From: Anaerolineae bacterium
GTDB lineage: Bacteria; Chloroflexota; Anaerolineae; J036; Brachytrichaceae
Length of the DNA stretch: 48,489 nt
Reading direction: 5' to 3'
Assembly (NCBI GenBank): GCA_018500105.2
Contig: JAHBAL020000227.1
Coordinates: 1-48,489, forward strand
The notes under the pieces are model-generated. The model was not told where the DNA came from. It saw only the letters and a list, made by a program, of their open reading frames with translations, and ran no database searches. Below are positions 9,786 through 47,366 of this stretch, piece by piece; positions within the stretch are counted from its first letter, which is position 1; every line of letters begins with the position of its first letter. A program made the position numbers and the translations under genes.

Positions 9786-10859
9786 ATGACAAAAAAATTT
9801 ACCAACGGATACGCCCTGTTAATTTCGGTAGACGAAAATAGTGTGCCAAACTGGGCCTTGCCCGACGTGCTGAAAGATGTGAATGCGCTGCGTGATGTGC
9901 TCATTCACCCGCAACGGTGTGGGTATGACCCGAAAAAGGTGCGCGTGATTGCTGGTGCAAAGGCGACACGGCAAGGCATTTTCGATGGCCTAGCATGGCT
10001 GGCAAACAACTTGGCTGCCGACACAAGCGGTAACGCGACCGCGCTGGTCTATTACACCGGTCACGGTTGGCGTGATCCAAATCGCAATCCCCCCGAATTT
10101 TATTTCATCCCCTACGACGTAAAACCGACCAGTGTCGCGGCACGGGCGCTGGCAGCCCGCGATTTTGCCGCCGAAGTGGCAGCATTGCAGCCAAAACGTT
10201 TGTTTGTGGTGCTCGATTGCTGCCATGCAGCCGGGGCCGATGTCAAAGACTTGACCGCAATTGGCAACGCCATCAGCAGCGCCATGCCAGTGCAGGTGGT
10301 GTTGGCAAATGAGGCCGAGGCGACGGCTGACATTACGCCGACGGGTGGCAAAGACTTGAGCGAATTGGCGTTGGGAGCGGGGCGGGCCATTCTTAGCTCG
10401 TCGCAGGCAGCAGAAAAGTCATGGCTGCGCAAAGATGGCAGCATGAGCGTCTTTACCTATTACCTGATTGAGGCACTGACCGGCCACGCGCAGCCAGCCG
10501 GTGGCGCAAACGAAGTGCTGGTGTCAGATGTCATGAGCCATGTTTACCGTAATGTGCCAAAATTGGTGCAGGCCGAACGTAATCAGCCACAGCACCCCGA
10601 CTATCAGGTGAGTGGCAATTTTCCGGTGGCGTTGCTGTTGGGCGGCAAAGGTTTGGCGGCGGGGCAAGCCGCGCCTGACCCGTTGCAATCGCCTAAACCC
10701 AGTGCCCGCGCCATCAAAATTACAGTTGGCGATGGTGTGGCGATTGTTGGCGATAATAATTTGGCAGCCGGCGCGGGTGGGGTGGTGGTGGGCGGTAGCG
10801 TTGGCGGCAGCATCACAACGGCAGTGCAACCCAAGCCACACAAGCCGCGTTTGCGTTAA
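9786..10859 (+). CDS. Caspase-like (peptidase C14/metacaspase) protein with Gly/Asp-rich C-terminal tail
   Basis: His motif ALVYYTGHGWRD, Cys motif LFVVLDCCHAAG; tail ITVGDGVAIVGDNNLAAGAGGVVVGGSVGGS. Confidence 0.87.
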   Translation: MTKKFTNGYALLISVDENSVPNWALPDVLKDVNALRDVLIHPQRCGYDPKKVRVIAGAKATRQGIFDGLAWLANNLAADTSGNATALVYYTGHGWRDPNRNPPEFYFIPYDVKPTSVAARALAARDFAAEVAALQPKRLFVVLDCCHAAGADVKDLTAIGNAISSAMPVQVVLANEAEATADITPTGGKDLSELALGAGRAILSSSQAAEKSWLRKDGSMSVFTYYLIEALTGHAQPAGGANEVLVSDVMSHVYRNVPKLVQAERNQPQHPDYQVSGNFPVALLLGGKGLAAGQAAPDPLQSPKPSARAIKITVGDGVAIVGDNNLAAGAGGVVVGGSVGGSITTAVQPKPHKPRLR

Positions 10860-33013: not shown

Positions 33014-34180
33014 ATGTTTGACAAATACGCTTTTCGTTTTTTTTTCATCGTTGCTTTTACTGGTGTTTCGTCTTTTGTATTTACGCCTTTATATCTGCAA
33101 GCCTCTGCCCCAAAATATCAGCTTATTGCTGCTGGCGAAACGCATACCTGTGCTATCACTGATAATAGCTCGGTAGTCTGTTGGGGATATAACTATGAAG
33201 GTCAGTTGGGAGATGGTACGCAGATTAGTCGTAGTTCTCCAGCTAATGTTATCAATCTGGCACAGCCTGTTGCTCAGCTTTCATCCGGTGGAAATCACAC
33301 TTGTGCCTTGACCAAGACAGGCAATGTATTTTGTTGGGGTAGCAATCGGTATGGACAATTGGGGGATGGTAGTCAGGAGCGCCGCACAAGCCCAGCTCAA
33401 GTTAGTGGGTTGAATGGCGTCTTGGCATTGTCATCTGGATCATGGCACACTTGTGCGGTTTTAGCAGATAGCGTTAAATGCTGGGGTTGGAATGGTGCGG
33501 GGTTACTGGGTGACGGCACACAAACAGATCAATTAACACCAGCTAACGTTCAAGGATCTCTGCGAGGGGTGCAACACATAGCCGTTGGTGCAACTCATAC
33601 GTGCATTTTAATTAATAGCGGTGTTAAATGTTGGGGCTATAACAACTATGGGCAGTTGGGGGATGGTTCAACCCTATCGAAAACTAGTCCAACTGACGTA
33701 ATAGGGCTTGAAGTAGATGTGCAATCAATTTCGGTAGGTGATTGGCATACGTGTGCGATCAAAAAAGACGGAACCATATGGTGTTGGGGATATAACTTAG
33801 CTTATCAGATCGGTGACGGGACACAGATAGATCGTTCGATCCCAGTGAAGGTTGCAAATTTGGTTGGTTCGTTTGCTCAGATCAGTGCAGGAGGTGCACA
33901 TACATGTGTGCGTACTATGGCTGGCATGGCTAAATGTTGGGGCGTAAATGACTCAAAGCAACTGGGAGATGATTCATTTGAGCCTCATAATACAATTATA
34001 GATGTCTCGGTGCTGCCAAAACCTATTTTGGATATCAGTAGTGGTGGTAAGCATACGTGTGCAATTTTGCTGAGCGGCGAATATTTTTGTTGGGGGTATA
34101 ACGCAACTGGGCAGCTTGGTAATGGTATTATGAATACTGCATCTTTATTCCAAGTCTTTTTGCCTTTTGCTGCGCGTTGA
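33014..34180 (+). CDS. Secreted RCC1-repeat (beta-propeller) protein
   Basis: Repeated HTCAI...VWCWGYN..GQLGDGT...SP..V motifs; signal-like N-terminus; C-terminal FQVFLPFAAR. Confidence 0.9.
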   Translation: MFDKYAFRFFFIVAFTGVSSFVFTPLYLQASAPKYQLIAAGETHTCAITDNSSVVCWGYNYEGQLGDGTQISRSSPANVINLAQPVAQLSSGGNHTCALTKTGNVFCWGSNRYGQLGDGSQERRTSPAQVSGLNGVLALSSGSWHTCAVLADSVKCWGWNGAGLLGDGTQTDQLTPANVQGSLRGVQHIAVGATHTCILINSGVKCWGYNNYGQLGDGSTLSKTSPTDVIGLEVDVQSISVGDWHTCAIKKDGTIWCWGYNLAYQIGDGTQIDRSIPVKVANLVGSFAQISAGGAHTCVRTMAGMAKCWGVNDSKQLGDDSFEPHNTIIDVSVLPKPILDISSGGKHTCAILLSGEYFCWGYNATGQLGNGIMNTASLFQVFLPFAAR

Positions 34181-34225
34181 CGTTGAGTGTCTATTCAAAA
34201 TGTGAGTTTTGCTGGTAGGTTAGAA

Positions 34226-35251
34226 ATGAGAATTTCTGTCGCATTATGCACCTATAATGGCGCGATCTATTTAAATGAGCAATTGCAAAGCCTGATGCAA
34301 CAAAGCCGTTTACCGGATGAGTTGATTATTTGTGATGATGCTTCGACGGATGACACCCTAATAATTGCTCGCAGATTTGCTGATCAAGCTCCTTTTGTGA
34401 CACGGGTTCTTGCAAATGCAAACAGAGTAGGGACATCAAAAAACTTTGAGCGTGCTTTAATAGCGAGTTCAGGTGACATCATCGCATTATGTGACCAAGA
34501 TGATGTGTGGCTCTACAATAAGTTAGCTAAGTTATCGTCTATATTTGCTGCGCATCCTCAGGCTGGTTATGTTTTCTCAGACGCTTTGGTCGTAGATAAA
34601 CATTTAAAGCCGTTAAACCCACCTCGGCAGTTGTGGGCATCTGTAGGATTTACAGACGAAGATATTGAGATGTTTTGCGCCTGTGATGCAATGTCGCAGG
34701 TGCAACGATTATTAAGACGAACATTAGTGACAGGCACGACCATGGCTTTTCGCAGTCATTTACGCAAATTCATTTTCCCTATTCCTTCAGAATGGGTGCA
34801 TGATGCGTGGATTTCACTTGTTTTGTCAATCTTTGGTTGGTATGGCGTGCCTGTAAATGCAGCATTGGTGCAATATCGGCAGCATGAATCTCAGCAATTA
34901 GGTGTGCGATCGGGATTGGCGATTCATTCGCCCCAAGTAAATAATGTGGCAAAATTTAAAATTTTTCGCGGTATGGATAAATCGGATAAATTGGGTAAGC
35001 GGCTTGAATCATTGAAGGCGATACAAGTATTAGCGCAGCATTTGTTAATTCAGCAGAATGCCGAAGGCCCTTTGCCTGACTCAGTGATGCGAGTCGTGAA
35101 TGCTTATATCCAACATTCTCAAGATCGAGTAGCAGCTTATCAAGCTACAGGATTACGTCGGTGGCGAATTATCCTAAACTCATTGTTCTCAGGGAACTAC
35201 CACATTTACTCAAACCGTTATTCGAGTATTATCAAAGATACGTTTACATAA
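34226..35251 (+). CDS. Glycosyltransferase family 2
   Basis: MRISVALCTYNGAIYLNEQLQSLMQQSRLPDELIICDDASTDDT; ALCDQDDVW. Confidence 0.9.
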   Translation: MRISVALCTYNGAIYLNEQLQSLMQQSRLPDELIICDDASTDDTLIIARRFADQAPFVTRVLANANRVGTSKNFERALIASSGDIIALCDQDDVWLYNKLAKLSSIFAAHPQAGYVFSDALVVDKHLKPLNPPRQLWASVGFTDEDIEMFCACDAMSQVQRLLRRTLVTGTTMAFRSHLRKFIFPIPSEWVHDAWISLVLSIFGWYGVPVNAALVQYRQHESQQLGVRSGLAIHSPQVNNVAKFKIFRGMDKSDKLGKRLESLKAIQVLAQHLLIQQNAEGPLPDSVMRVVNAYIQHSQDRVAAYQATGLRRWRIILNSLFSGNYHIYSNRYSSIIKDTFT

Positions 35252-35273: not shown

Positions 35274-36194
35274 ATGGCGAACGAGCAAGTTAACATTTTG
35301 TTGTCGTCTTACAACAGCGCTTCTTTTTTGCGGGCACAGCTAGATAGTTTGCTGACCCAAACCTATCCGTCGTTACACATAATTATTCGTGACGACGGAT
35401 CATCTGATGGCACCCCCGCTATTTTGGCTGAATATGCCAATGCTTATTCTCAGCAAATTACAGTTGTTTTAGGCGAACATATTGGTGCTGCTGCCAGCTT
35501 TTTTCAATTGTTGGTTGAAAGTAGTGACTATAGCGACTATTTTGCATTTTGTGATCATGATGATATTTGGTTTGAAGACAAAGTTGCGAAGGCGGTGCAA
35601 ATAATACGCAAGATGCCAGACGGCCAACCCAATTTATATTGTGGTCGCCGCATATGTGTAGATATAAATTTGAAAGAAGTTGGCTATAGCCTACTCCCAA
35701 CTTATGTTGGTTATGAAAATGCCTTGGTTGAAAATATTGTCGCTGGTTGCACCGTCTTAATGAATAAAGCAGCGCGGCGATTGCTTTGTCAGGTCATCCC
35801 CAAAAAGATGATTATGTACGATTGGTGGTGTTATTTAGTTGTTTCTGCATTTGGATACGTGCATTACGATGCACAACCATATATGCTGTATCGGCAACAT
35901 GCAGGGAATTTGAAGGGTGACACCCCCTTATGGTATAAGCGATTGTGGCAGCGCGGCTTGCGCTTGTTGCGTCAGCGCCGAGGGGTATATACAATTAGTG
36001 ATCAAGTTGCCGAATTTGTGCATCATTATGGCGAGTGTTTAGCCCCTGAAAGACGTGATATGGCGCAAGCGTTATTAATGGCTCGTAGAAATTTGGCTGC
36101 GCGGATAGCTTATGCACTACACACCCCGTTACGACGACAAACTTATTATGATCAACGCTTATTGCAATTTCTTATTGCGGCGGGGTTATATTAA
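35274..36194 (+). CDS. Glycosyltransferase family 2 (tandem with previous)
   Basis: VNILLSSYNSASFLRAQLDSLLTQTYPSLHIIIRDDGSSDGT; FCDHDDIWF. Confidence 0.9.
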   Translation: MANEQVNILLSSYNSASFLRAQLDSLLTQTYPSLHIIIRDDGSSDGTPAILAEYANAYSQQITVVLGEHIGAAASFFQLLVESSDYSDYFAFCDHDDIWFEDKVAKAVQIIRKMPDGQPNLYCGRRICVDINLKEVGYSLLPTYVGYENALVENIVAGCTVLMNKAARRLLCQVIPKKMIMYDWWCYLVVSAFGYVHYDAQPYMLYRQHAGNLKGDTPLWYKRLWQRGLRLLRQRRGVYTISDQVAEFVHHYGECLAPERRDMAQALLMARRNLAARIAYALHTPLRRQTYYDQRLLQFLIAAGLY

Positions 36195-36206: not shown

Positions 36207-36962
36207 ATGTCGGATGTTCAAGTTGATTTAGTAAATGCTTCGTTACGGTTTCGCATTTATCATAATCCTACCCCCTCATTAAAGGAAACCATCACAAGTC
36301 GGTTTACACGTCGCAAACAGCTTTTTAATACGATCACCGAATTTTATGCGCTCAAAGATATCACGCTAAGTATCAAGCGCGGTGAACGGGTAGGGATTGT
36401 TGGCTTAAATGGCGCAGGCAAATCTACCTTGCTCAAGGTGATTGCGGGTGTATATCCATTGCATCAGGGTTCGTTACGGGTGAAGGGTCGTGTTATTCCG
36501 CTTATTGAATTAGGGACTGGTTTCAATATGGAGATGAGCGGGCGTGATAATATCTACTTAAATGGGGCCATGCTTGGCTTTTCGCCTACCGAGATGCAAG
36601 CTTATGAGCAGAAAATTATTGATTTTGCAGAGATTCACGAATTTATTGACTTGCCGCTAAAGTATTTTTCAAGCGGCATGAGTATGCGACTGGCATTTTC
36701 AATTGCAACTTTGATCCAACCCGAAATTTTGATTGTGGATGAGATATTCGCTGGCGGCGATGCTAAATTTGTTGGCAAAGCCACTGCCCGCATGAATAAT
36801 CTGATTAATAGCACCCCGATTGTTATTTTTGTGTCGCACCGAGCTGAACTCGTAAAGCAGATTTGCAACCGTGTTGTGGTATTGCATAAAGGACAATTGA
36901 TGAACGATGGCGACCCAGAAACAATGATCCAATATTATATGGATCATATTGTTGCTGGATAG
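36207..36962 (+). CDS. Polysaccharide ABC exporter ATP-binding protein (Wzt/RfbB/TagH-like, short form)
   Basis: GLNGAGKSTLLKVIAGVYPLHQG; FSSGMSMRLAFSIATLIQPEILIVDEIFAGGD. 251 aa, no C-terminal glycan-binding extension. Confidence 0.9.
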   Translation: MSDVQVDLVNASLRFRIYHNPTPSLKETITSRFTRRKQLFNTITEFYALKDITLSIKRGERVGIVGLNGAGKSTLLKVIAGVYPLHQGSLRVKGRVIPLIELGTGFNMEMSGRDNIYLNGAMLGFSPTEMQAYEQKIIDFAEIHEFIDLPLKYFSSGMSMRLAFSIATLIQPEILIVDEIFAGGDAKFVGKATARMNNLINSTPIVIFVSHRAELVKQICNRVVVLHKGQLMNDGDPETMIQYYMDHIVAG

Positions 36963-37014: not shown

Positions 37015-37842
37015 ATGATGCTAAGAACTTATGACGCGGCCAAAAATGAAAGCTTTATTTATTTTTTGCGGCGAAATTTCCATGATCTATGGATTTACCG
37101 ATTTGCTATTTTTAATTTGATACGCAATGCTGTCATCATGCGGTATCGCCGCTCGTTATTGGGTGTATTGTGGTCACTTATCAACCCTTTGCTTATGATG
37201 TTTGTGATGACAGTCGCTTTTTCAATTTTATTTCAACAAGACCCATTACGTTTCTCTACGTATGTTTTGAGTGGTTTAGTGGGTTGGGGGTTTATTTCAG
37301 GCAGCATTACAACAGGTATGAACGCACTCATTGCTTCCGAAGGTTTTTTGCGCAAACTATACGCGCCTAAATTAATGTTTCCCTTAGTTACTGTCGGTGT
37401 TGAGTTAGTGAATATGGGCTTTAGTCTAATTTGCTATTTTGTGGTCGGTTTACTTGTAGGATTGCATGTCAGCTTGCCCTTTGTTCTTTTGCCTTTTGTG
37501 CTATTGCTCATGCTCGTTTTTAGCTATGGCTTGGCCTTATTCATGAGTGTGATCACAGTTTATTTTCGTGATATCGCTCATATTACTGGAGTCATCATCC
37601 AAGCTTTATTTTATACCTTGCCGATCATATACCCGCTTGAAAATTTCCCGGAATCAAGTCGGATTTGGTTTTATTTCAATCCGTTTTATCATTACATTTC
37701 CTTATTACGTCAGGTGCTTTATTATGGCGAATGGCCTACTTTTGCTGAGTGGGGTATAACTGTTATGATTAGTCTGATATCTTTATTTTTGGGCGTTGCA
37801 GTGATGAAGCTTCGGGACCGTGATTTGGTTTATCGCTTGTAA
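37015..37842 (+). CDS. Polysaccharide ABC-2 exporter permease (Wzm/RfbA/TagG-like)
   Basis: DLWIYRFAIFNLIRNAVIMRYRRSLLGVLWSLINPLLMMFVMTVAFS; FYTLPIIYPLENFPE. Confidence 0.9.
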   Translation: MMLRTYDAAKNESFIYFLRRNFHDLWIYRFAIFNLIRNAVIMRYRRSLLGVLWSLINPLLMMFVMTVAFSILFQQDPLRFSTYVLSGLVGWGFISGSITTGMNALIASEGFLRKLYAPKLMFPLVTVGVELVNMGFSLICYFVVGLLVGLHVSLPFVLLPFVLLLMLVFSYGLALFMSVITVYFRDIAHITGVIIQALFYTLPIIYPLENFPESSRIWFYFNPFYHYISLLRQVLYYGEWPTFAEWGITVMISLISLFLGVAVMKLRDRDLVYRL

Positions 37843-37914: not shown

Positions 37915-38025
37915 ATGCTGGCTAGTACAATTGCTGATATGCCGCAGGTGATTACACCGCGGCAACTTCGGCACGCAGATTGGCAAATGCTTGAGCATTT
38001 GATTGATGAAACAGAGAAAATGTAA
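37915..38025 (+). CDS. Possible small ORF or gene remnant (36 aa)
   Basis: MLASTIADMPQVITPRQLRHADWQMLEHLIDETEKM, ending 10 bp before the NRPS start. Confidence 0.25.
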   Translation: MLASTIADMPQVITPRQLRHADWQMLEHLIDETEKM

Positions 38026-38035
38026 AAGGTTTTGT

Positions 38036-41000
38036 ATGTCTACATCTAATTTAGAAGAACGAATTGCTAATTTATCACCCGAAAAGCGGGCATTGCTAAA
38101 CCAACGTTTGCAGGAATATTTGGCGCGAGAAAAGAAAGCATTTGCGATTGCTAAACGTGATTTAACCCAACCTAATGTGTTGTCATATTCACAGCAGCGG
38201 CTATGGTTTTTGCAACAACTAGAGCCGGATAGTAATGCTTATAACGAAACCAGTATATGGCGCTTGGAAGGTAAGTTGGATGTGCAAGTGTTTGAGCGTA
38301 GCTTGCGTGAGATTATGAAACGCCATGAGGTAACACGCACAAAATATAGGCTGGTCAATGATGAGCCAGTTCAAGTCGTTGCCTCTACAGATGAATTTAG
38401 CCTGCAAGTCTTTGATTTACGACATATTCCCGAGGCTGAGCGCGAAACACATTTGCACCGCCAAGCGCAAGCCGATAGCCAACGCCCCTTTAATTTAGTT
38501 GATGAAATCCCTATCCGCTATAAGCTTTATCAGTTAGCCGACACAACGTATATTTTCCTGAATGTGCATCATCATATTTGCTCGGATGGTTGGTCTTCGG
38601 GGGTGTTTTATCGCGAGCTAGGTGCGTTGTATAACGCTTTTATTAGTGGAAAAGCATCGCCGCTGATGCCGATTAGTATTCAGTATGCTGATTATGCTGT
38701 GTGGCAACGACAACAGCTACAAGGCGCAAAACTCAATGATCTATTGCAATATTGGCAACAAAAATTAGCTGGCGTTCCCGAATCACTTAATTTGCCTTTT
38801 GATTTTGCACGGCCAGAAAGTCAAAGTGCTGAATCTGGGGTTAAGCGCTTTGTTGTGCCAGCAAATTTAGTGGGTGGCTTAAAGCAATTGGCTCGCCAAA
38901 GTGATGCCACGCTTTATATGGTTTTATTGGCGGCTTTTAAAGTTTTGCTGATGCGTTACACCAACCAAACTGATATTGTGATTGGCAGTCCAATTGCGAA
39001 TCGGCAGCACCCCGAAATTGAAAGCCTGTTAGGGATGTTTGTGAATACATTGGTGATGCGCAGCGATTTGTCAGGTAATCCTAGTTTTCGCGATTTGTTA
39101 CGACAAGTGCGACAAACAGCATTAGATGCCTATGATCACCAAGACTTACCATTTGAGAAGTTGGTTGAGGTCTTGCAACCCACACGGCGTTTGAACTATA
39201 ACCCTATTGTTCAAAGTATGTTGTCGGTGCAAAACACACCTAAAAGCAGCTTTGAATTGCAAGGTCTATCTGTTGAGCGACTACGCAGTGGAGAAGAAAA
39301 GTCTAAATTTGATTTGTCTCTAGCTTTTAATGAAAATGTAAATGGCTTGACGGGTCAACTTATTTACAATATCACGTTATTTGCCGAAGATACTATAGAT
39401 CGCTTAACTGATCACCTGCTAATATTATTTGCGGGAATTATTGACAATCCTGAATGCGGTATCGAAAAACTGCCAATCATCTCAGAAGCTGAACACACAC
39501 AATTCTTAAAGTGGAATGCGACCACCAAAAACTATCCAAAAGATCGGTGTATTCATGAGTTGTTTGAGGCACAGGTGCTCAGAACGCCCGAAAATATAGC
39601 TGTTGTATGTGATTCAGACAAACATTTGTCACCATCCACATTTGCCACGAAAAGCTTAACGTATCGTCAATTAAACGAAAGGGCAAATCACCTTGCACAT
39701 CACTTAAAGACAATTGGCGTTGCGAATGAGGGATTGGTTGGTATTTTTCTTGATCGTTCGTGTGAAATGATCATCTCTATCATGGGGGTGTTAAAGTCTG
39801 GGGCGGCTTATGTGCCATTTGAGCCAACGTATCCACGCGACCGAATTGAAAGTATTTTGAAAGATGGCGGCATTCAGTTTATGATTACGAGTCGTGATCT
39901 GTCCGCCATGTTGCCGCCTGATATTGCAACAGTTGTCGTAATGGATACTGATGTTGAGCAAGAATATTCAGCAGAACCACCTGTTACTTTGTTCCAACCT
40001 CGCCAACTAGCCTATGTTTTATTTACTTCAGGCAGCACAGGTCAACCCAAAGGCGTAATGGTGGAGCATCAGCAAATTGTCAATTACGTTTACGCAATGT
40101 TGGGGTGGTGCGTGCCTCCGGGTAGCAGTTGTGCAATGGTACAACCATTAACGGTTGATTCTTGCTTGACGATGCTTTTTCCCCCTTTGTTGTCTGGCGG
40201 TGTCCTTCATGTGATTTCACGAGATCTGGCTGTAGATGCACATGGTTTAGCGGATTATTTACAGCAAAATAACATTGATTGTTTGAAAATAGCCCCCTCT
40301 CATTTAGCTGCTTTGCAATCGGGCGATAGCACGGTGAGGTTACTTCCGTTGCAAAGCCTAATTATTGGCGGCGAGGCTTCACATTTTGCGTGGGTAGAAC
40401 AGTTGCAACAGTTACGACCTGGCTGCAAGATTTTTAACCACTATGGGCCGACCGAAACGACAGTGGGGGTCTTGACTTATCCTGTTTTTTCTGCCAAACC
40501 GAAATCTGCGGGACTAACCACACCTATTGGTTATCCGATAGCAAATACACAAACCTATATCCTAGATAAACATCTTCGACGTGTTCCAGTCAATGTTTCG
40601 GGTGAGTTATATATTGGTGGCGATAACGTGGCACGTGGCTATCTTAAGCATTTAGATTTGACCAACGAAAAATTTTTACCCAATCCGTTTGCCGAAGGGG
40701 TTATGTATAAAACGGGTGATTTGGCTCGCTATTTAGTCGATGGCGCAATTGAATTTTTGGGTAGAGACGATTTTCAAGTGAAAATTCGCGGTTTTCGTAT
40801 TGAACTCAGCGAGATTGAGAATGTATTGCTGCAACATCATTTTGTCCAACAATGCGTTGTGGTTGCCCATGAGAAAAGCATAGAAAATAAGCAGCTTGTA
40901 GCGTATGTCGTTTTGCACCCTGACAAGGTTATTACCATTGATGAATTGCGCAATTTGTTGCAACAAAAGTTGCCAGCGTATATGTTGCCAGCCGCAATTG

Positions 41001-43138
41001 TGATATTACCTGCCTTGCCACATAGCGAACATGGCAAGGTAGATCGAAAAGCATTGATGGAGCGGCCCATCGAGAAACAGATCTCGCTTTCTCAGACAAC
41101 AGTTTTGACGCCTATCCAAAGCGAAATTGCACATATATGGCGTGAGTTGTTGCGGTTAGACCACGTTGACATGACCGATAATTTTTTCGACTTAGGTGGG
41201 CATTCATTGCTAACCGTGCGGTTATTGTTGCAAATCGAGCAACGTTTTGGGGTGCGGTTGTCTTTGCGGCAATTTATTATTGATCCAACCATCACATTTT
41301 TGGACAGTGAAATTACCAAAGCTAAATTGCAAGTTAAACATGTTGGCGACGACGAAAAAATACAAGTGACAGATGATGAGGTGAATGTTTTTGAAGGTGA
41401 TGAGGCTTTTAATCATTGGTATGATACATTAGGGAAACTCACACAACAACGCAGCAAAAAGAGCCTGTCTTGGCGTAAACGAATTATTGCTAAGATCCCA
41501 AAACCTATAATCTTTAAGGCTATTCGTTGGTTGTCTAATCAGCCTCGTATCCAGCAGCGTTATCGGGAGGGAGATTTAGTTGATTTAATGATGCGTTATC
41601 ACCAAGCCTCTGAACTAAACCTTTCAGTGAATATGGTGATTCACAATGCGATTTACTATCATTGGCTATGGGATTATATAGATGTATTAGTTCCGATGAA
41701 AAGTCCAAAGATGGTGACAAAAAATACATTTTGGGCGCGAGTTGAGGGATTCGATTTATTGATTAAAGCTAAAGAAACTGGGCAAGGTGTTATTTTGGCA
41801 AACGCTCACATATTGCCAGCTTACATCTCAAATCTAACTGCACTGATCAACTTTAAAATTATGGGATACGGGGTGATGTCAAAAACATCAAATACCTCAA
41901 ACACTATTGAAAAGGAAAGAGCTTTTTGGGCACACCAACTTGAAATTGCTTGGAAAGTTTTACAACAGGGGGGAGTTGTTAGTATTGGTGCAGATGTGGT
42001 CGAAGGGGCAGGACCTACTCATGATAGCGAATTTTTAGGGCGACAGCGTTATTTTCGCACTAGTTTTGCTGAGTTAGCCTTAATGACGAATGCGCAAGTA
42101 ATTTTAGTCACAGGTGAAGCCATACCTGATCAGCCAATGAAAATTACTTTGTCGGAATTAGATAAAGGTGATCCTCAATTATCACATCAAGACCGTGTTA
42201 AATATTTGATGTGTCAGTATATAGAGAACCTAAAAAAGATGTGGCAGACTATGCCTTGGATGGTGGATAAAAACTGTATTAGAGATTATCTTGATTATTG
42301 GCCGATCGTCCAACCTGAACTTAGAAATTTGTTTTTTTTATCTTTTCGGCGATTTGATTTTTCCATTAATCATTTTTCTGATTTAAAAGCAACCAAAAAT
42401 GTATTTAATTTTATTTATGCACGTCAAATCTTTGATTCATTGCCGGCGCATAAAAAAATTAAACATTATAAGACGCAATATTTTTTTTCATGGCTTGCTG
42501 ATGGAAGTGATTATTTTCCTAAATTAGGATCTTCTACTCCTTATCTATTACTTTCAAACTTAGCATTATATATCTATATGCAACGCTCAGACATAATTCT
42601 TCAATTTCCAGATATTATGAATCAGGATCGTCTAGCATTTATTTTTTGGTTTTTACGACATGCAACCGAAGAATATAAGATCCCGTCTGAGTTAACTATG
42701 GCGATGAATCAATCACTCATGAATTGGTCGGCAGAGCATAAGCAGGCTTATGCTTCACTCCCAGTTAAAATGAATTTACCTTGCTATATTTGGCAAATTC
42801 GTAAAGATTTGCAGCTTGCTTTTCCAAACTTTGATACTACGACTCAACCCCATGAGGTTGTGCCTTTTCTATTATGGTTTTTTGATCAGGGATTAAAAGA
42901 ATATTCATTTATTACACAAACTGACAATATGTGGAAAATTTTTAAACAGTGGGCCAATGAAGCTGATATTACGATGCCCACCTTAACTCGGATAGCGGCT
43001 GGCTTATGGCAATCACGGGCCGACTTGCAAGAGGCATTCAAAAAACCGGAAAATGAAGATCACCAACCTTATATCGAGTGGTTGCTTTCACAAAGCCATT
43101 TTTCATCTGGATTGCGTTTTGAAGCTGCTAAATCATAA
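38036..43138 (+). CDS. Chimeric NRPS: condensation - adenylation - PCP - LpxL/HtrB-like acyltransferase region - C-terminal triplicated motif domain
   Basis: C: LSYSQQRLWFLQQL, VHHHICSDGWS; A: YVLFTSGSTGQPKG, YGPTETTVG, YKTGDLARY, GFRIELSEIE; PCP: DNFFDLGGHSLLTVRL; then GQGVILANAHILP...LQQGGVVSIGAD...FLGRQRYFRTSFAELALMTNAQVILV. Start corrected to MSTSNLEERIANLSPEKRALL. Confidence 0.9.
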   Translation: MSTSNLEERIANLSPEKRALLNQRLQEYLAREKKAFAIAKRDLTQPNVLSYSQQRLWFLQQLEPDSNAYNETSIWRLEGKLDVQVFERSLREIMKRHEVTRTKYRLVNDEPVQVVASTDEFSLQVFDLRHIPEAERETHLHRQAQADSQRPFNLVDEIPIRYKLYQLADTTYIFLNVHHHICSDGWSSGVFYRELGALYNAFISGKASPLMPISIQYADYAVWQRQQLQGAKLNDLLQYWQQKLAGVPESLNLPFDFARPESQSAESGVKRFVVPANLVGGLKQLARQSDATLYMVLLAAFKVLLMRYTNQTDIVIGSPIANRQHPEIESLLGMFVNTLVMRSDLSGNPSFRDLLRQVRQTALDAYDHQDLPFEKLVEVLQPTRRLNYNPIVQSMLSVQNTPKSSFELQGLSVERLRSGEEKSKFDLSLAFNENVNGLTGQLIYNITLFAEDTIDRLTDHLLILFAGIIDNPECGIEKLPIISEAEHTQFLKWNATTKNYPKDRCIHELFEAQVLRTPENIAVVCDSDKHLSPSTFATKSLTYRQLNERANHLAHHLKTIGVANEGLVGIFLDRSCEMIISIMGVLKSGAAYVPFEPTYPRDRIESILKDGGIQFMITSRDLSAMLPPDIATVVVMDTDVEQEYSAEPPVTLFQPRQLAYVLFTSGSTGQPKGVMVEHQQIVNYVYAMLGWCVPPGSSCAMVQPLTVDSCLTMLFPPLLSGGVLHVISRDLAVDAHGLADYLQQNNIDCLKIAPSHLAALQSGDSTVRLLPLQSLIIGGEASHFAWVEQLQQLRPGCKIFNHYGPTETTVGVLTYPVFSAKPKSAGLTTPIGYPIANTQTYILDKHLRRVPVNVSGELYIGGDNVARGYLKHLDLTNEKFLPNPFAEGVMYKTGDLARYLVDGAIEFLGRDDFQVKIRGFRIELSEIENVLLQHHFVQQCVVVAHEKSIENKQLVAYVVLHPDKVITIDELRNLLQQKLPAYMLPAAIVILPALPHSEHGKVDRKALMERPIEKQISLSQTTVLTPIQSEIAHIWRELLRLDHVDMTDNFFDLGGHSLLTVRLLLQIEQRFGVRLSLRQFIIDPTITFLDSEITKAKLQVKHVGDDEKIQVTDDEVNVFEGDEAFNHWYDTLGKLTQQRSKKSLSWRKRIIAKIPKPIIFKAIRWLSNQPRIQQRYREGDLVDLMMRYHQASELNLSVNMVIHNAIYYHWLWDYIDVLVPMKSPKMVTKNTFWARVEGFDLLIKAKETGQGVILANAHILPAYISNLTALINFKIMGYGVMSKTSNTSNTIEKERAFWAHQLEIAWKVLQQGGVVSIGADVVEGAGPTHDSEFLGRQRYFRTSFAELALMTNAQVILVTGEAIPDQPMKITLSELDKGDPQLSHQDRVKYLMCQYIENLKKMWQTMPWMVDKNCIRDYLDYWPIVQPELRNLFFLSFRRFDFSINHFSDLKATKNVFNFIYARQIFDSLPAHKKIKHYKTQYFFSWLADGSDYFPKLGSSTPYLLLSNLALYIYMQRSDIILQFPDIMNQDRLAFIFWFLRHATEEYKIPSELTMAMNQSLMNWSAEHKQAYASLPVKMNLPCYIWQIRKDLQLAFPNFDTTTQPHEVVPFLLWFFDQGLKEYSFITQTDNMWKIFKQWANEADITMPTLTRIAAGLWQSRADLQEAFKKPENEDHQPYIEWLLSQSHFSSGLRFEAAKS

Positions 43139-43204: not shown

Positions 43205-44575
43205 ATGTTCAATCAGTTATGGCATCCTATCCGGGCGCAATTGCGATATCGTGCTTCTTGGCTTAAACACCATTCCTTAGATGTACTTGAGCCGCGCCCA
43301 CAAGTCGCACAACAGCGACGAATTAATGGGCAAGTCAGCGTATCTGTGGTTATTCCTACGCTAAATGGTGCTAACGATCTTGCCCAGTTACTGCCTGTCT
43401 TGCATCAGCAACAGGGTATCACTCATCTTGATTTGATTGTGGTAGATTCTGGCAGCCAAGATGGCACTGTCGAACTAGCCCAGCAGCATCAAGCCAGGGT
43501 GATAAAAATTGCACCGAGCCAATTTACGCATTCATATGCTCGTAATATTGGGGCTGCACAAGCAAAATCTCCATATGTGTGTTTTATGGTGCAAGATGCT
43601 TTACCCAGTAGCCCTACGTGGCTCAACCAGATGGTTTATGCGCTGAATGCGAATAAACGCTGCGCGGCGGTATCATGCATTGAACAACCCAAAGCAGATG
43701 CAGATTTGTTCGCGATATGTAACGTTTTTCTGCACAATGAATTTATGGGAGTGCAAGCCCGGGATCGGTTACTTCGCCCTACTTATTCAAAAAAGTATGT
43801 GGCGCGACGACGAAATGCACAATTAACCAATGTCGCGTGTTTGTTGCCACGTGACATTGTGATGCAATACCCATTTGAGGGTGATTATGGCGAAGATTTA
43901 AATCTGGGCTTGCGTTTAATTGATGCAGGTTATCGCATGGTCTTGTTGAACACAGCGCCTATTATTCACTCACATAATCGCTCGGCTAGTTACTACTTTC
44001 GTCGGTCTTATGTGGGTGAACGGATGACGCTAAATGTATTTTTAGATTATCCATTGCCTGTTGTTTCTCCGCACTGTTTTATCACAAATTTAGCGTTTTG
44101 TTTGGCTGGATTAGCGCATCTGAATTTGATTCTAAAAGAAGTAAAAGAACATTACTTTATACATGCTCTGGAGTTTTTGCGCTATTTCACTAGTAAACTA
44201 GAGGTTGTTTATGATTTTTACGACAACGAAGGAACTCGACAACTGCCAACATGGGATAAGGAACTCAATAAACAAGTGCATGAAGTGGTAAATACACTAC
44301 GAATGATTGCCCCATACCGTTTTGATAAAGAGCAAGGTTGGGAAGATAGATTGCCTGCTACATGGCTTTTGTCCCGCATCTTAGCCCTTGTAGATGGCTT
44401 AGAGCGATTTAAGAATGAGCATCACATCATTATGCCGACATCTCAAGAATTATGGTCATGTATTATCAATGCATTTGGGCTTTATACAGGCAGTATGCTT
44501 GCTGCAATGATGCACAGCGTGCCCCAAAAAGCCTTATGGGAGCAGCTTGACCAAGAATTACGGACAGGCGTTTAG
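43205..44575 (+). CDS. Glycosyltransferase family 2 (rhamnosyltransferase-like)
   Basis: VSVVIPTLNGANDLAQLLPVLHQQQGITHLDLIVVDSGSQDGTVELAQQHQARVIKIAPSQFTHSYARNIGAAQAKSPYVCFMVQDALP. Confidence 0.88.
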   Translation: MFNQLWHPIRAQLRYRASWLKHHSLDVLEPRPQVAQQRRINGQVSVSVVIPTLNGANDLAQLLPVLHQQQGITHLDLIVVDSGSQDGTVELAQQHQARVIKIAPSQFTHSYARNIGAAQAKSPYVCFMVQDALPSSPTWLNQMVYALNANKRCAAVSCIEQPKADADLFAICNVFLHNEFMGVQARDRLLRPTYSKKYVARRRNAQLTNVACLLPRDIVMQYPFEGDYGEDLNLGLRLIDAGYRMVLLNTAPIIHSHNRSASYYFRRSYVGERMTLNVFLDYPLPVVSPHCFITNLAFCLAGLAHLNLILKEVKEHYFIHALEFLRYFTSKLEVVYDFYDNEGTRQLPTWDKELNKQVHEVVNTLRMIAPYRFDKEQGWEDRLPATWLLSRILALVDGLERFKNEHHIIMPTSQELWSCIINAFGLYTGSMLAAMMHSVPQKALWEQLDQELRTGV

Positions 44576-44590: not shown

Positions 44591-45985
44591 CTAGTACATC
44601 TCCGCAGAAATCTCTCCCCCTAGCAACTCGGATTATTTAGTCAATGGTCGCCCCTTGTAAGTCCACTTGAACGGCTTTGCCATGGTGCGATTAAAGAAAT
44701 CGATAAAATCCAAAATACGCTGCTTCAGATCTGCTGTTGAGCAGAAACTTGCGCGTTTCAGCAACCGCCGCACCAAAATACTAAACCATATCTCGATTTG
44801 ATTCAACCATGAACTATGTTTCGGCGTATATACAAACCGTATCCGATGGGCAATATCTTCAAGAAATGCCATCCGTGTTGCCATCGATTTTAGAACGCCG
44901 CTTTTGCCCTTCTCACCCAAATCTTCGCTGATGCCACACAAACGCGCCACCAGCCTCACCAGCGTTTCTGACATATGCGTGTTAAGTTGATCCATTACAA
45001 ATATCCACTGCATCAGCGGATTTGGATTGCTTTCGATTGTCCTTGCCACATGATCTGCAAAATCCTGCTCGGTTCGTCGCTCTCCCACCGTTGGCGACAC
45101 CACTGCTCCGCTTGCCACATCAAAGTTTGCGATCAATGCTTGGGTTCCATGTCACTCATACTCAAATTCGCGGCATTCAACCTTCCCTACACCCATTGGT
45201 AGATTCTCCGCGATCCGCTCCAATGCCTGTATCCCAGTCATCTCATCCACACTCAGGGTGCATCCCCCTTTCGTGGCTACCTCAGCCGCTTGCTCATAGA
45301 CATCACATACTTTTTTGACACGTGCGTCAAACTCAGCGGCAGCTTCTTCGTCCTCAGGTCGGCTGTTTAGCCAATAGCGGCTTAAATGTGGTTTGATCTG
45401 TGCCTGATTTTAAAAATCGCCCAACACTGCGGTCTGAAATACTCTCTACAATCTTACCTTTGATCGCTTCGTTTGCTAATATCTGCGGTGTCCAATGGCT
45501 AATTGGGTACCCGCTGTCTTGTGGACATTCACACGCAAGTGCAATTATTTTTACAATGGTTTCTGCATCAAATTTTGCGGGTGCACCGCTTCGCTCTGCG
45601 TCTGAAAATACTTTTACCATTTCCGACTCTAATTCTTCCAGGTTGCTTAGCCCAGTCTTTTTATCGATCTGCTGTTCAATTGTGTTTAATTGTGCTTGGG
45701 CGGCAAGCCATCGTTTTCGCCAGTGGCGCACTTTATCGCGGCTTAATCCGCAATTTCGGCGCATCTGTCCATTGCTTATGCCGTTCACACTCAACAAAAT
45801 GATTTTTGCACGCTCAACTAAGCCAGCGGGTAACACGCGTGATTTTGTCATTTCTTCAAGTATTTGTTTTTGATTTGCGCTTGCAGGCATGGGTTGATGG
45901 GCAAGATGTTGTATCATTTCCCATCATTATCACGCCTTCTTTGTCACCCTATGCAGGGTGTGGGTTTTCTGCGGAGTTGTACTAG
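44591..45985 (-). mobile_element. IS630-like insertion sequence with terminal inverted repeats at TA
   Basis: Left IR ctagtacatctccgcagaaa (44591-44610); right IR tttctgcggagttgtactag (45966-45985) = rc ctagtacaactccgcagaaa, 19/20 match. Confidence 0.88.
44633..45917 (-). pseudogene. IS630 family transposase, disrupted
   Basis: N-terminal HTH ORF 45354..45917 and C-terminal DDE ORF 44633..45136 ([15 protein letters not shown]...[24 protein letters not shown]). The linking frame KPHLSRYWLNSRPEDEEAAAEFDARVKK... needs a frameshift and has an in-frame TGA ([16 protein letters not shown]). Confidence 0.88.
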
Positions 45986-46016
45986 ATAGATTTTGGGTGT
46001 GTATCCATACTCAATA

Positions 46017-47366
46017 ATGATTAATACCATGTTGTATCCAAAACTTGTAAAAGTAGCTACAGCGCTAGTTATATTTTGGGTCACCTTCTTTTTCGCCTAT
46101 CGTTTATATCGTCTGATAGACAAGAATGCAATCAACGTCCTTTTCTATGACCAGTGGGATTTCTTAGTGCCACTTTTTAATCAGAGAGACGCATGGACAA
46201 TATTCTCGCGGCAACATGGGCCGCATCGTGAGGGCATAGGGTTAATTTTCACTCAGTGGCTATATAACGCGACGGCTTGGGACGTGCGAGCAGAAAGTTT
46301 TATGTTATTTGCCTTCATGCTAGTGGCTTTATTGATTGCATTTCGAGTAACCTATGTCATTAATAATAAAACAATTCATGTGACCGACTTTCTGCTCCCG
46401 ATGATCTTTTTAACGCCACGTCACTACGAAACGTTTGTTGGTACACCGAATCTTGGCTATAGCGTGTTGCCTGTGTTAATGATTACATTGTATGCGGCAA
46501 CAATGCTCGTGAGCCATATTAAGTTCCGAGTCATAGCAATTGTGTTACTCAATTTTTTACTTTTGTATTCAGGGTTTGGTCTTTTTGTCGGTGTGCTTAC
46601 CCCAGTCTTGTTGCTATTTTATTGTTTTAGTGATTCTCGGAATCGCCCAGTTTACTTTATGGGCATAATAAGTTGCGCTTTCGCGACCATCCTCTTTTTT
46701 TACAATTACAGATGGACGCCTGCGGTAAGCTGCTTTCATTTTCCCGACGAAAACCCATTAAGCTATATTCGGTATATGTCAATTATGTGGGGTTCGTTTT
46801 GGGGCTATCGTTACGATATACAACAAGATAATCTGTTGATTAATGTCTTTAGTTTGGGTTTTTGTCTTATTTTGCTTTGTTTTTATGCTGTTTTTTACTG
46901 TTTTAGAGAAGCCTTTATGAATTATCGCGTGATCAAACCAGCAGGGCTTATTATTTTATTTTTGATAGGATTTTCTGCGATATTTACAGTTTTTACTTCA
47001 GTAGGGCGGTTATGTTTGGGTCTTGAAACGGCTGGCGCTTCGCGTTATATGATGTTATTAGTTCCGGGTATGTGGGGGCTGTATTTGTTTTTAGGGCGCA
47101 ATGTTATAACTGAGCGTTATCCTTTTGCAAGAGCAATATTCGCCCTAATTTTTGTTGTTTCATTTCTACAAAACGACCCGCGTTATACACTCGAAGCGCA
47201 AGATTTTAATATTCGTAAAAGCAAATGGCTTGCATGTTACAAAAGCGAGCAAGACCCTTTCAAATGCTCGGCACAACCAGAAACTGGCATTCATCCTAAT
47301 GTTAAATCAATTGTCCCAAAGCTCGAGTTTTTGAAAAACGCGAAACTGAACTTGTTTGCTGATTGA
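46017..47366 (+). CDS. Hypothetical multi-pass membrane protein
   Basis: About 449 aa with many hydrophobic segments; start MINTMLYPKL chosen over the upstream start close to the IS right end. Confidence 0.75.
   Translation: MINTMLYPKLVKVATALVIFWVTFFFAYRLYRLIDKNAINVLFYDQWDFLVPLFNQRDAWTIFSRQHGPHREGIGLIFTQWLYNATAWDVRAESFMLFAFMLVALLIAFRVTYVINNKTIHVTDFLLPMIFLTPRHYETFVGTPNLGYSVLPVLMITLYAATMLVSHIKFRVIAIVLLNFLLLYSGFGLFVGVLTPVLLLFYCFSDSRNRPVYFMGIISCAFATILFFYNYRWTPAVSCFHFPDENPLSYIRYMSIMWGSFWGYRYDIQQDNLLINVFSLGFCLILLCFYAVFYCFREAFMNYRVIKPAGLIILFLIGFSAIFTVFTSVGRLCLGLETAGASRYMMLLVPGMWGLYLFLGRNVITERYPFARAIFALIFVVSFLQNDPRYTLEAQDFNIRKSKWLACYKSEQDPFKCSAQPETGIHPNVKSIVPKLEFLKNAKLNLFAD

Follow-up and report, generated by a model that had tools for sequence, protein, structure and literature searches.

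A few systems (Dlt, Alm) are known to decorate surface glycans with amino acids through carrier-bound chemistry. In the AlmE-AlmF-AlmG system of Vibrio cholerae, an adenylation enzyme, a carrier and a transferase work in series to place glycine on lipid A (PMC12930378), and AlmG has been classed among the lysophospholipid acyltransferases (LPLATs) (PMC11631085). ElbD, an ether-lipid enzyme of Myxococcus xanthus, combines an acyl-activating domain, a carrier and an LPLAT-superfamily (AGPAT-like) domain in one chain (PMC9131029, PMC9426513). Carrier-plus-LPLAT enzymes are known in principle. Our literature search, with thin coverage of subscription journals, turned up neither a paper on NRPS-like proteins that carry a lysophospholipid acyltransferase nor a description of a fused clade of PF03279 type whose active site is remodelled, the clade of the protein described here, of an Asp-type C-A module or of GT repeats in this setting.

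We analysed a 48,489-nucleotide stretch of DNA (the window), in which positions 38036-43138 of the + strand form a single intact open reading frame of 1700 residues, with the ATG at 38036 and the stop codon ending at 43138. The open reading frame and domain scans give the order condensation (C), adenylation (A), peptidyl carrier protein (PCP), LPLAT and three repeats. A Pfam scan placed Condensation at aa 49-489 (38180-39502, +; PF00668, E 4e-115), with an intact HHxxxDG motif (HHHICSDGWS), AMP-binding and AMP-binding_C at aa 510-1001 (39563-41038, +; PF00501/TIGR01733), and PP-binding at aa 1030-1086 (41123-41293, +; PF00550), with the attachment serine in LGGHSLL and a Foldseek TM(target) of 0.89 to PCP structures. 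All three domains carry intact core motifs, as in an NRPS elongation module, and Pfam finds neither a thioesterase nor a reductase domain in the protein. Both observations agree with the initial annotation, which had described full C-A-PCP core motifs with no releasing domain of either kind behind them.

The protein resembles AlmE-AlmF-AlmG in combining an A domain, a carrier and an LPLAT-superfamily transferase, here all in one chain. The Alm system differs in that it comprises three proteins, uses glycine, acts on lipid A and has no C domain, whereas the 1700-residue protein is a single chain with an Asp-like code and glycosyltransferase (GT)-associated repeats, in a genome without LpxC. With ElbD and ElbD-like NRPS-like proteins it shares an activating domain, a carrier and an LPLAT-superfamily domain in one chain. 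In contrast, ElbD serves ether lipids and has both a reductase-like domain and a transferase of AGPAT type, while the present protein has a C-A-PCP module, an LpxL/PatA-type LPLAT (PF03279) and no reductase domain, and lies in a glycan export setting. PatA, the mycobacterial PIM acyltransferase, and LpxM/LpxL have the LPLAT fold in common with it, but they are standalone, keep the HX4D/E motif and use fatty acids from acyl-CoA or ACP, whereas the fused clade lacks this acid and an Arg. A-PCP-LPLAT proteins (L014-L020, L051-L063, L112-L114) have the same PCP-LPLAT tandem, active-site signature and clade but possess neither a C domain nor C-terminal repeats. A C-A-PCP protein on contig C125 of the same genome is ~60% identical over C and A and has an identical code, but ends after the PCP. 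By analogy, the 1700-residue protein is best read as a fused counterpart of AlmE-AlmF-AlmG in the way it may work, or of ElbD in the way it appears to be built.

Taken on its own, the region behind the PCP gave NCBIfam PRK08905 at 5e-4 and PF03279 at a weak E of 0.015, and its LPLAT domain scored 14.9 bits, under the PF03279 Pfam cut-off of 22.3 bits. Because these single-protein matches are weak, the LPLAT call needed support from relatives. A phmmer search of aa 1101-1700 against the PDB returned nothing credible, the LPLAT domain queried alone found no relatives on the contigs of the genome collection, and matches of aa 1101-1700 to thymidylate synthase and DHX37_C were dismissed as chance. 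Among 396 genomes of the same class we found open reading frames, 930-1044 aa long, that combine A-PCP with this LPLAT domain. An alignment of 13 rows contained no stretch sufficiently conserved for scanning, whereas a 5-row alignment gave 8 loci. PF03279 (Lip_A_acyltrans) was matched by all eight aligned fused members (best 1.8e-11), and a profile of the aligned fused domains matched the solved structures of PatA (7e-10) and LpxM (1.4e-4). Pfam scans of full-length relatives showed AMP-binding and PP-binding, with Lip_A_acyltrans in 5 of 6; several exceed the PF03279 gathering cut-off. The LPLAT is of the PF03279 type, and relatives matched PF01553 only weakly. Pfam scans of fused relatives detected a thioesterase in none of them.

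An AlphaFold model covering PCP, LPLAT and repeats has a low mean confidence of 54.8, and only its PCP and LPLAT core blocks, at 70-90, were used, to compare folds. The best Foldseek matches of this model were LpxM (2e-6), PatA (2e-5) and PCPs. With the relatives included, profiles and predicted structure firmly support the assignment of the region after the PCP to an LPLAT domain of the LpxL/PatA fold. The LpxL-like fold proposed earlier is thus supported by profiles, the Foldseek matches to LpxM and PatA, and the tree described below. Its span, first put at about 41464-42300, is present but is better set, from profiles, Foldseek, tree and alignment, at about 41432-42328 (+; aa ~1133-1431), while aa ~1431-1700 make up a distinct region of GT-associated repeats.

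In a tree of 19 fused and 20 standalone LPLAT domains, the two kinds split with 100/100 support, and the domain of the 1700-residue protein falls among the fused ones, on a long branch and with ~20% identity to its fellow members. A fused-domain profile built without this domain scores it at 79 bits, compared with 22 bits for the standalone profile. Sequence comparison therefore places it in a PCP-LPLAT fused clade of its own. Anaerolinea and Caldilineaceae are among the named contigs of the class searched, which puts the window in the Anaerolineae, within Chloroflexota. Members come from Chloroflexota and Myxococcota, the latter contributing two, and the LPLAT lies directly behind the PCP in every full-length fused case scanned; the exact order C-A-PCP-LPLAT was met in one case only.

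The active site of the fused clade differs consistently from that of standalone enzymes. In the alignment, all 19 fused domains retain the catalytic His (His1258, 41807-41809, +) and a downstream Asp (Asp1320, 41993-41995, +). None of them has the HX4D/E acid, whereas it occurs in each of the 20 standalone domains whose motif is readable. A third position (Glu1346, 42071-42073, +) is Glu in 18 fused domains and Asp in the remaining one, and varies among standalone domains, whereas an Arg invariant in standalone LPLATs (window column 186 of the alignment) is missing from the fused ones. The site has thus been remodelled and apparently remains constrained. In the 1700-residue protein the His is kept and the +5 residue is Tyr (H-ILPA-Y); the altered motif noticed at the outset is thus real, but loss of the acid is a trait of the whole clade rather than a local alteration.

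Behind the LPLAT domain lie three tandem modules, absent from the initial annotation, at aa 1506-1561 (42551-42718, +), aa 1576-1624 (42761-42907, +) and aa 1643-1685 (42962-43090, +). By BLAST, the first matches the GT4 proteins L002-L005 (E 1e-10 for L002), the second the same GT4 region (E 8e-4, L002), and the third L002 at 9e-6 and L003/L004 at 3e-5. All three match one ~50-residue stretch of GT4-type glycosyltransferases of the same family, proteins that carry a Glycos_transf_1 domain. Since these GT-associated modules lie within the chain, the protein itself, and not just its neighbours, is tied to glycan synthesis.

The neighbours point the same way. Upstream on the + strand are two GT2 genes (34187-35251, PF00535 4e-20; 35274-36194, PF00535 9e-19), a gene for a Wzt-like polysaccharide-export ABC ATPase (36207-36962; ABC_tran; NF050108 at 207 bits, under the equivalog cut-off of 400) and one for its Wzm-like permease (37015-37842; PF01061; NF050109 at 103 bits, under the cut-off of 380). 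The best NCBIfam models for this pair are galactan-transporter models. A further GT2 gene follows directly downstream (43205-44575, +; PF00535 4e-17), and the locus also holds an NDP-sugar epimerase gene. PF00535, ABC_tran and PF01061 confirm the flanking GT2 genes and Wzt/Wzm-type exporter that had been recognised from the letters, with the exporter models below their equivalog cut-offs.

Among the fused relatives, sulfotransferase genes lie near L017, L019, L051, L052, L112, L113 and L114, GT2 or GT4 genes near L019, L020, L052, L060, L113 and L114, and polysaccharide pyruvyltransferase-like genes near L051 and L113; FkbM genes occur among the neighbours as well. PF00685 was found 26 times in twelve genomes of the class (~63 Mb), and six of these hits fall in 4 of 13 fused loci (~0.19 Mb), where ~0.08 would be expected. 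The stretches examined around L014, L015, L016, L018 and L055 hold no glycan genes. The glycan link of fused relatives is common, not universal. The glycan context first noted for this locus therefore extends to many relatives, and homologs are not confined to ordinary NRPS clusters; of the two contrary outcomes named beforehand, lack of an LpxL fold and homologs lying only in NRPS clusters without glycan genes, neither was seen.

Several of these neighbourhoods have features of their own. NitT/TauT-like transporter genes stand beside A-PCP-LPLAT in L014, L015, L051, L052 and L113, as judged by eye, with NMT1 detected by Pfam in L051. In L017 and L018 Pfam identifies asparagine synthase-like genes next to the fused gene, and inspection by eye adds PqqD-like and HPr-kinase-like ones; the layout recalls clusters of the lasso-peptide type. 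L112, L113 and L114 are unusually dense sulfotransferase/GT/FkbM loci in Chloroflexota and candidates for sulfated glycan synthesis; the A-PCP-LPLAT protein of L113 also carries a fused N-terminal methyltransferase domain.

Lipid A was considered as acceptor. LpxC was detected neither in this genome (G000) nor in 30 relatives, with positive controls detected; therefore lipid A is not the acceptor, and its aminoacylation is ruled out as far as LpxC tells. PF03279 at E 0.01 has no match anywhere in G000, so no ordinary LpxL-type enzyme was found in that genome. Within the class, standalone PatA/PIM-type LPLATs occur commonly.

The best PDB matches of the Condensation domain are Txo2 and Txo1 (337 and 323 bits), compared with 81 and 50 bits for the starter-type 7c1k and 4jn3. 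This ranking disfavours a starter-type C domain, and by sequence the domain is closest to the elongation (LCL-like) type. In the motif alignment the A-domain specificity code reads D-S-T-K-I-G-H-V-G-K, the same in the C125 paralog; we take its residues to occupy the GrsA code positions. The code shares 8 of its 10 positions with DLTKVGHVGK, the closest Asp/Asn code on record (PMC12283262), which suggests that the A domain probably activates aspartate. A domains of the A-PCP-LPLAT relatives are only ~30% identical to it. Most of them lack, by eye, the Asp235 residue of alpha-amino-acid domains and therefore probably load other acids. No upstream donor module is present in the gene or locus, where only a 36-codon A-PCP relic precedes the NRPS gene, so a donor would have to act in trans, from an A-PCP protein; several intact A-PCP genes lie on other contigs of G000, which also has PPTase candidates.

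The gene looks chimeric, its C-A part appearing to derive from an NRPS cluster. G000 contains two C domains in total, the second in the C-A-PCP protein of 1122 aa (G000:C125:13653-17021). The two proteins share 60% identity in C, 62% in the A core, 53% in the A subdomain and 36% in the PCP, and the genes 65% in DNA; beyond the PCP they are unrelated, the C125 protein having no LPLAT. At 2-21 kb of C125 (L089, L090), four separate A-PCP genes and the C-A-PCP gene adjoin a NitT/TauT-type ABC transporter and a methyltransferase. The relic between wzm and the NRPS gene (37915-38025, +), recognised by DNA and translated match and absent from the initial annotation, preserves the 3'-terminal 36 codons of an A-PCP gene (MLASTIADMPQVITPRQLRHADWQMLEHLIDETEKM, then stop) and is identical at 84 of 107 nt (79%, E 6e-20) to the 3' end of a 645-aa A-PCP gene (G000:C125:20845-20950). 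In the simplest reading, an A-PCP tail and a C-A unit from a C125-like cluster would have been fused, downstream of wzm, to a partner carrying LPLAT(-repeat) with or without the PCP. The C-terminal half of the PCP is 37% identical to L057 and 21% to the C125 paralog; this hints, suggestively only, at a breakpoint near aa 1010 and a PCP inherited together with the LPLAT. Synteny comparison of same-genus genomes revealed no ortholog of the downstream GT that could mark an empty site.

We propose, with confidence about evenly balanced, that the 1700-residue protein decorates a glycan or glycolipid, acting as a carrier-tethered transferase. The sequence-based part of this model comprises the domain order, the LPLAT fold and clade, the remodelled active site, the paralog, the relic, the glycan setting and the absence of LpxC; we infer aspartate loading, catalysis, the acceptor, a donor in trans and the role of the repeats as follows. 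The A domain would load an amino acid, most likely aspartate, onto the PCP, and the C domain would join an acid from an A-PCP protein in trans to the PCP-bound amino acid, or may be idle. The LPLAT domain, replacing a thioesterase, would pass the PCP-bound (acyl-)aspartyl group to an acceptor, possibly a hydroxyl or amine group on a sugar associated with the membrane or on a polyprenyl-linked glycan, and Wzm/Wzt would then export the decorated glycan. The C-terminal modules would probably tether the enzyme to the glycosyltransferase machinery or to the glycan.

Loss of the HX4D/E acid in 19/19 fused domains, together with the block Arg of standalone LPLATs, is what a pseudo-enzyme would show that only binds acceptor or carrier, with release by hydrolysis or a separate enzyme. 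However, a dead domain would hardly hold the His, the Asp and the gained acidic residue in 19/19 members at ~20% identity, and no other release domain is fused; we consider this explanation rather unlikely, and the non-catalytic acceptor-binding module envisaged initially loses ground on the same residues. Less probable still is an ordinary acyltransferase that uses acyl-CoA or ACP on a lipid and is fused for co-expression or localisation only. The fold shared with PatA and LpxM and the abundance of standalone PatA/PIM-kind LPLATs in the class are compatible with it, but the separate clade with its different active-site signature, the PCP preceding every full-length case scanned and the missing lipid A pathway marker argue otherwise.

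A soluble X-Asp natural product as the output of this NRPS, with accidental glycan neighbours, would suit two observations: the C-A part has a paralog in an NRPS-like cluster that includes a NitT/TauT-type ABC transporter, and some A-PCP-LPLAT relatives adjoin such transporters rather than glycan genes. To this reading, improbable in our view and ranked below the ordinary acyltransferase, are opposed the GT-associated modules built into the protein and the many relatives in sulfotransferase/GT loci. Finally, the architecture was seen once, in a single MAG of 574 contigs, as might follow from an assembly or recombination artefact without function. We regard this as very improbable indeed, given a frame open over 1700 codons with all core motifs, a paralog too diverged for a false join at only 65% DNA identity, and a diverged upstream relic, hence an old junction.

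Beyond this gene, and with somewhat less than even confidence, we tentatively suggest that PCP-coupled LPLATs form a separate, widespread NRPS off-loading class with a catalytic set of its own (His, Asp and a new Glu, with the HX4D/E acid and Arg lost), and that in bacteria lacking lipid A they attach carrier-bound acids to glycans or glycolipids; in the gene of the 1700-residue protein, this class would have moved onto an aspartate C-A module and gained glycosyltransferase-derived repeats. If true, transfer to a glycan would be a new NRPS release route beside hydrolysis, cyclisation and reduction, such systems could be found by a sequence signature, and the surface-glycan chemistry of a poorly cultured phylum, Chloroflexota, would become testable. 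A single-chain version with an NRPS module and a distinct LPLAT active site, wide in Chloroflexota, would extend the few known carrier-based systems.

Other genes of the window deserve mention. Immediately upstream of the glycan genes, 33014-34180 (+) encodes an apparently secreted protein with seven RCC1 repeats; in L055, too, a protein with RCC1 repeats that resembles it is found close to the fused gene. Just downstream of the glycan genes, 44633-45917 (-) contains transposase pieces in two frames and looks disrupted; the first piece matches DDE_3 and appears IS630-like by eye. A 457-aa polytopic membrane protein with no Pfam/NCBIfam match is encoded at 45993-47366 (+), adjoining the epimerase gene. 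A caspase-like peptidase (PF00656, 3e-13) is encoded at 9786-10859 (+), and an ABC ATPase gene comes after it.
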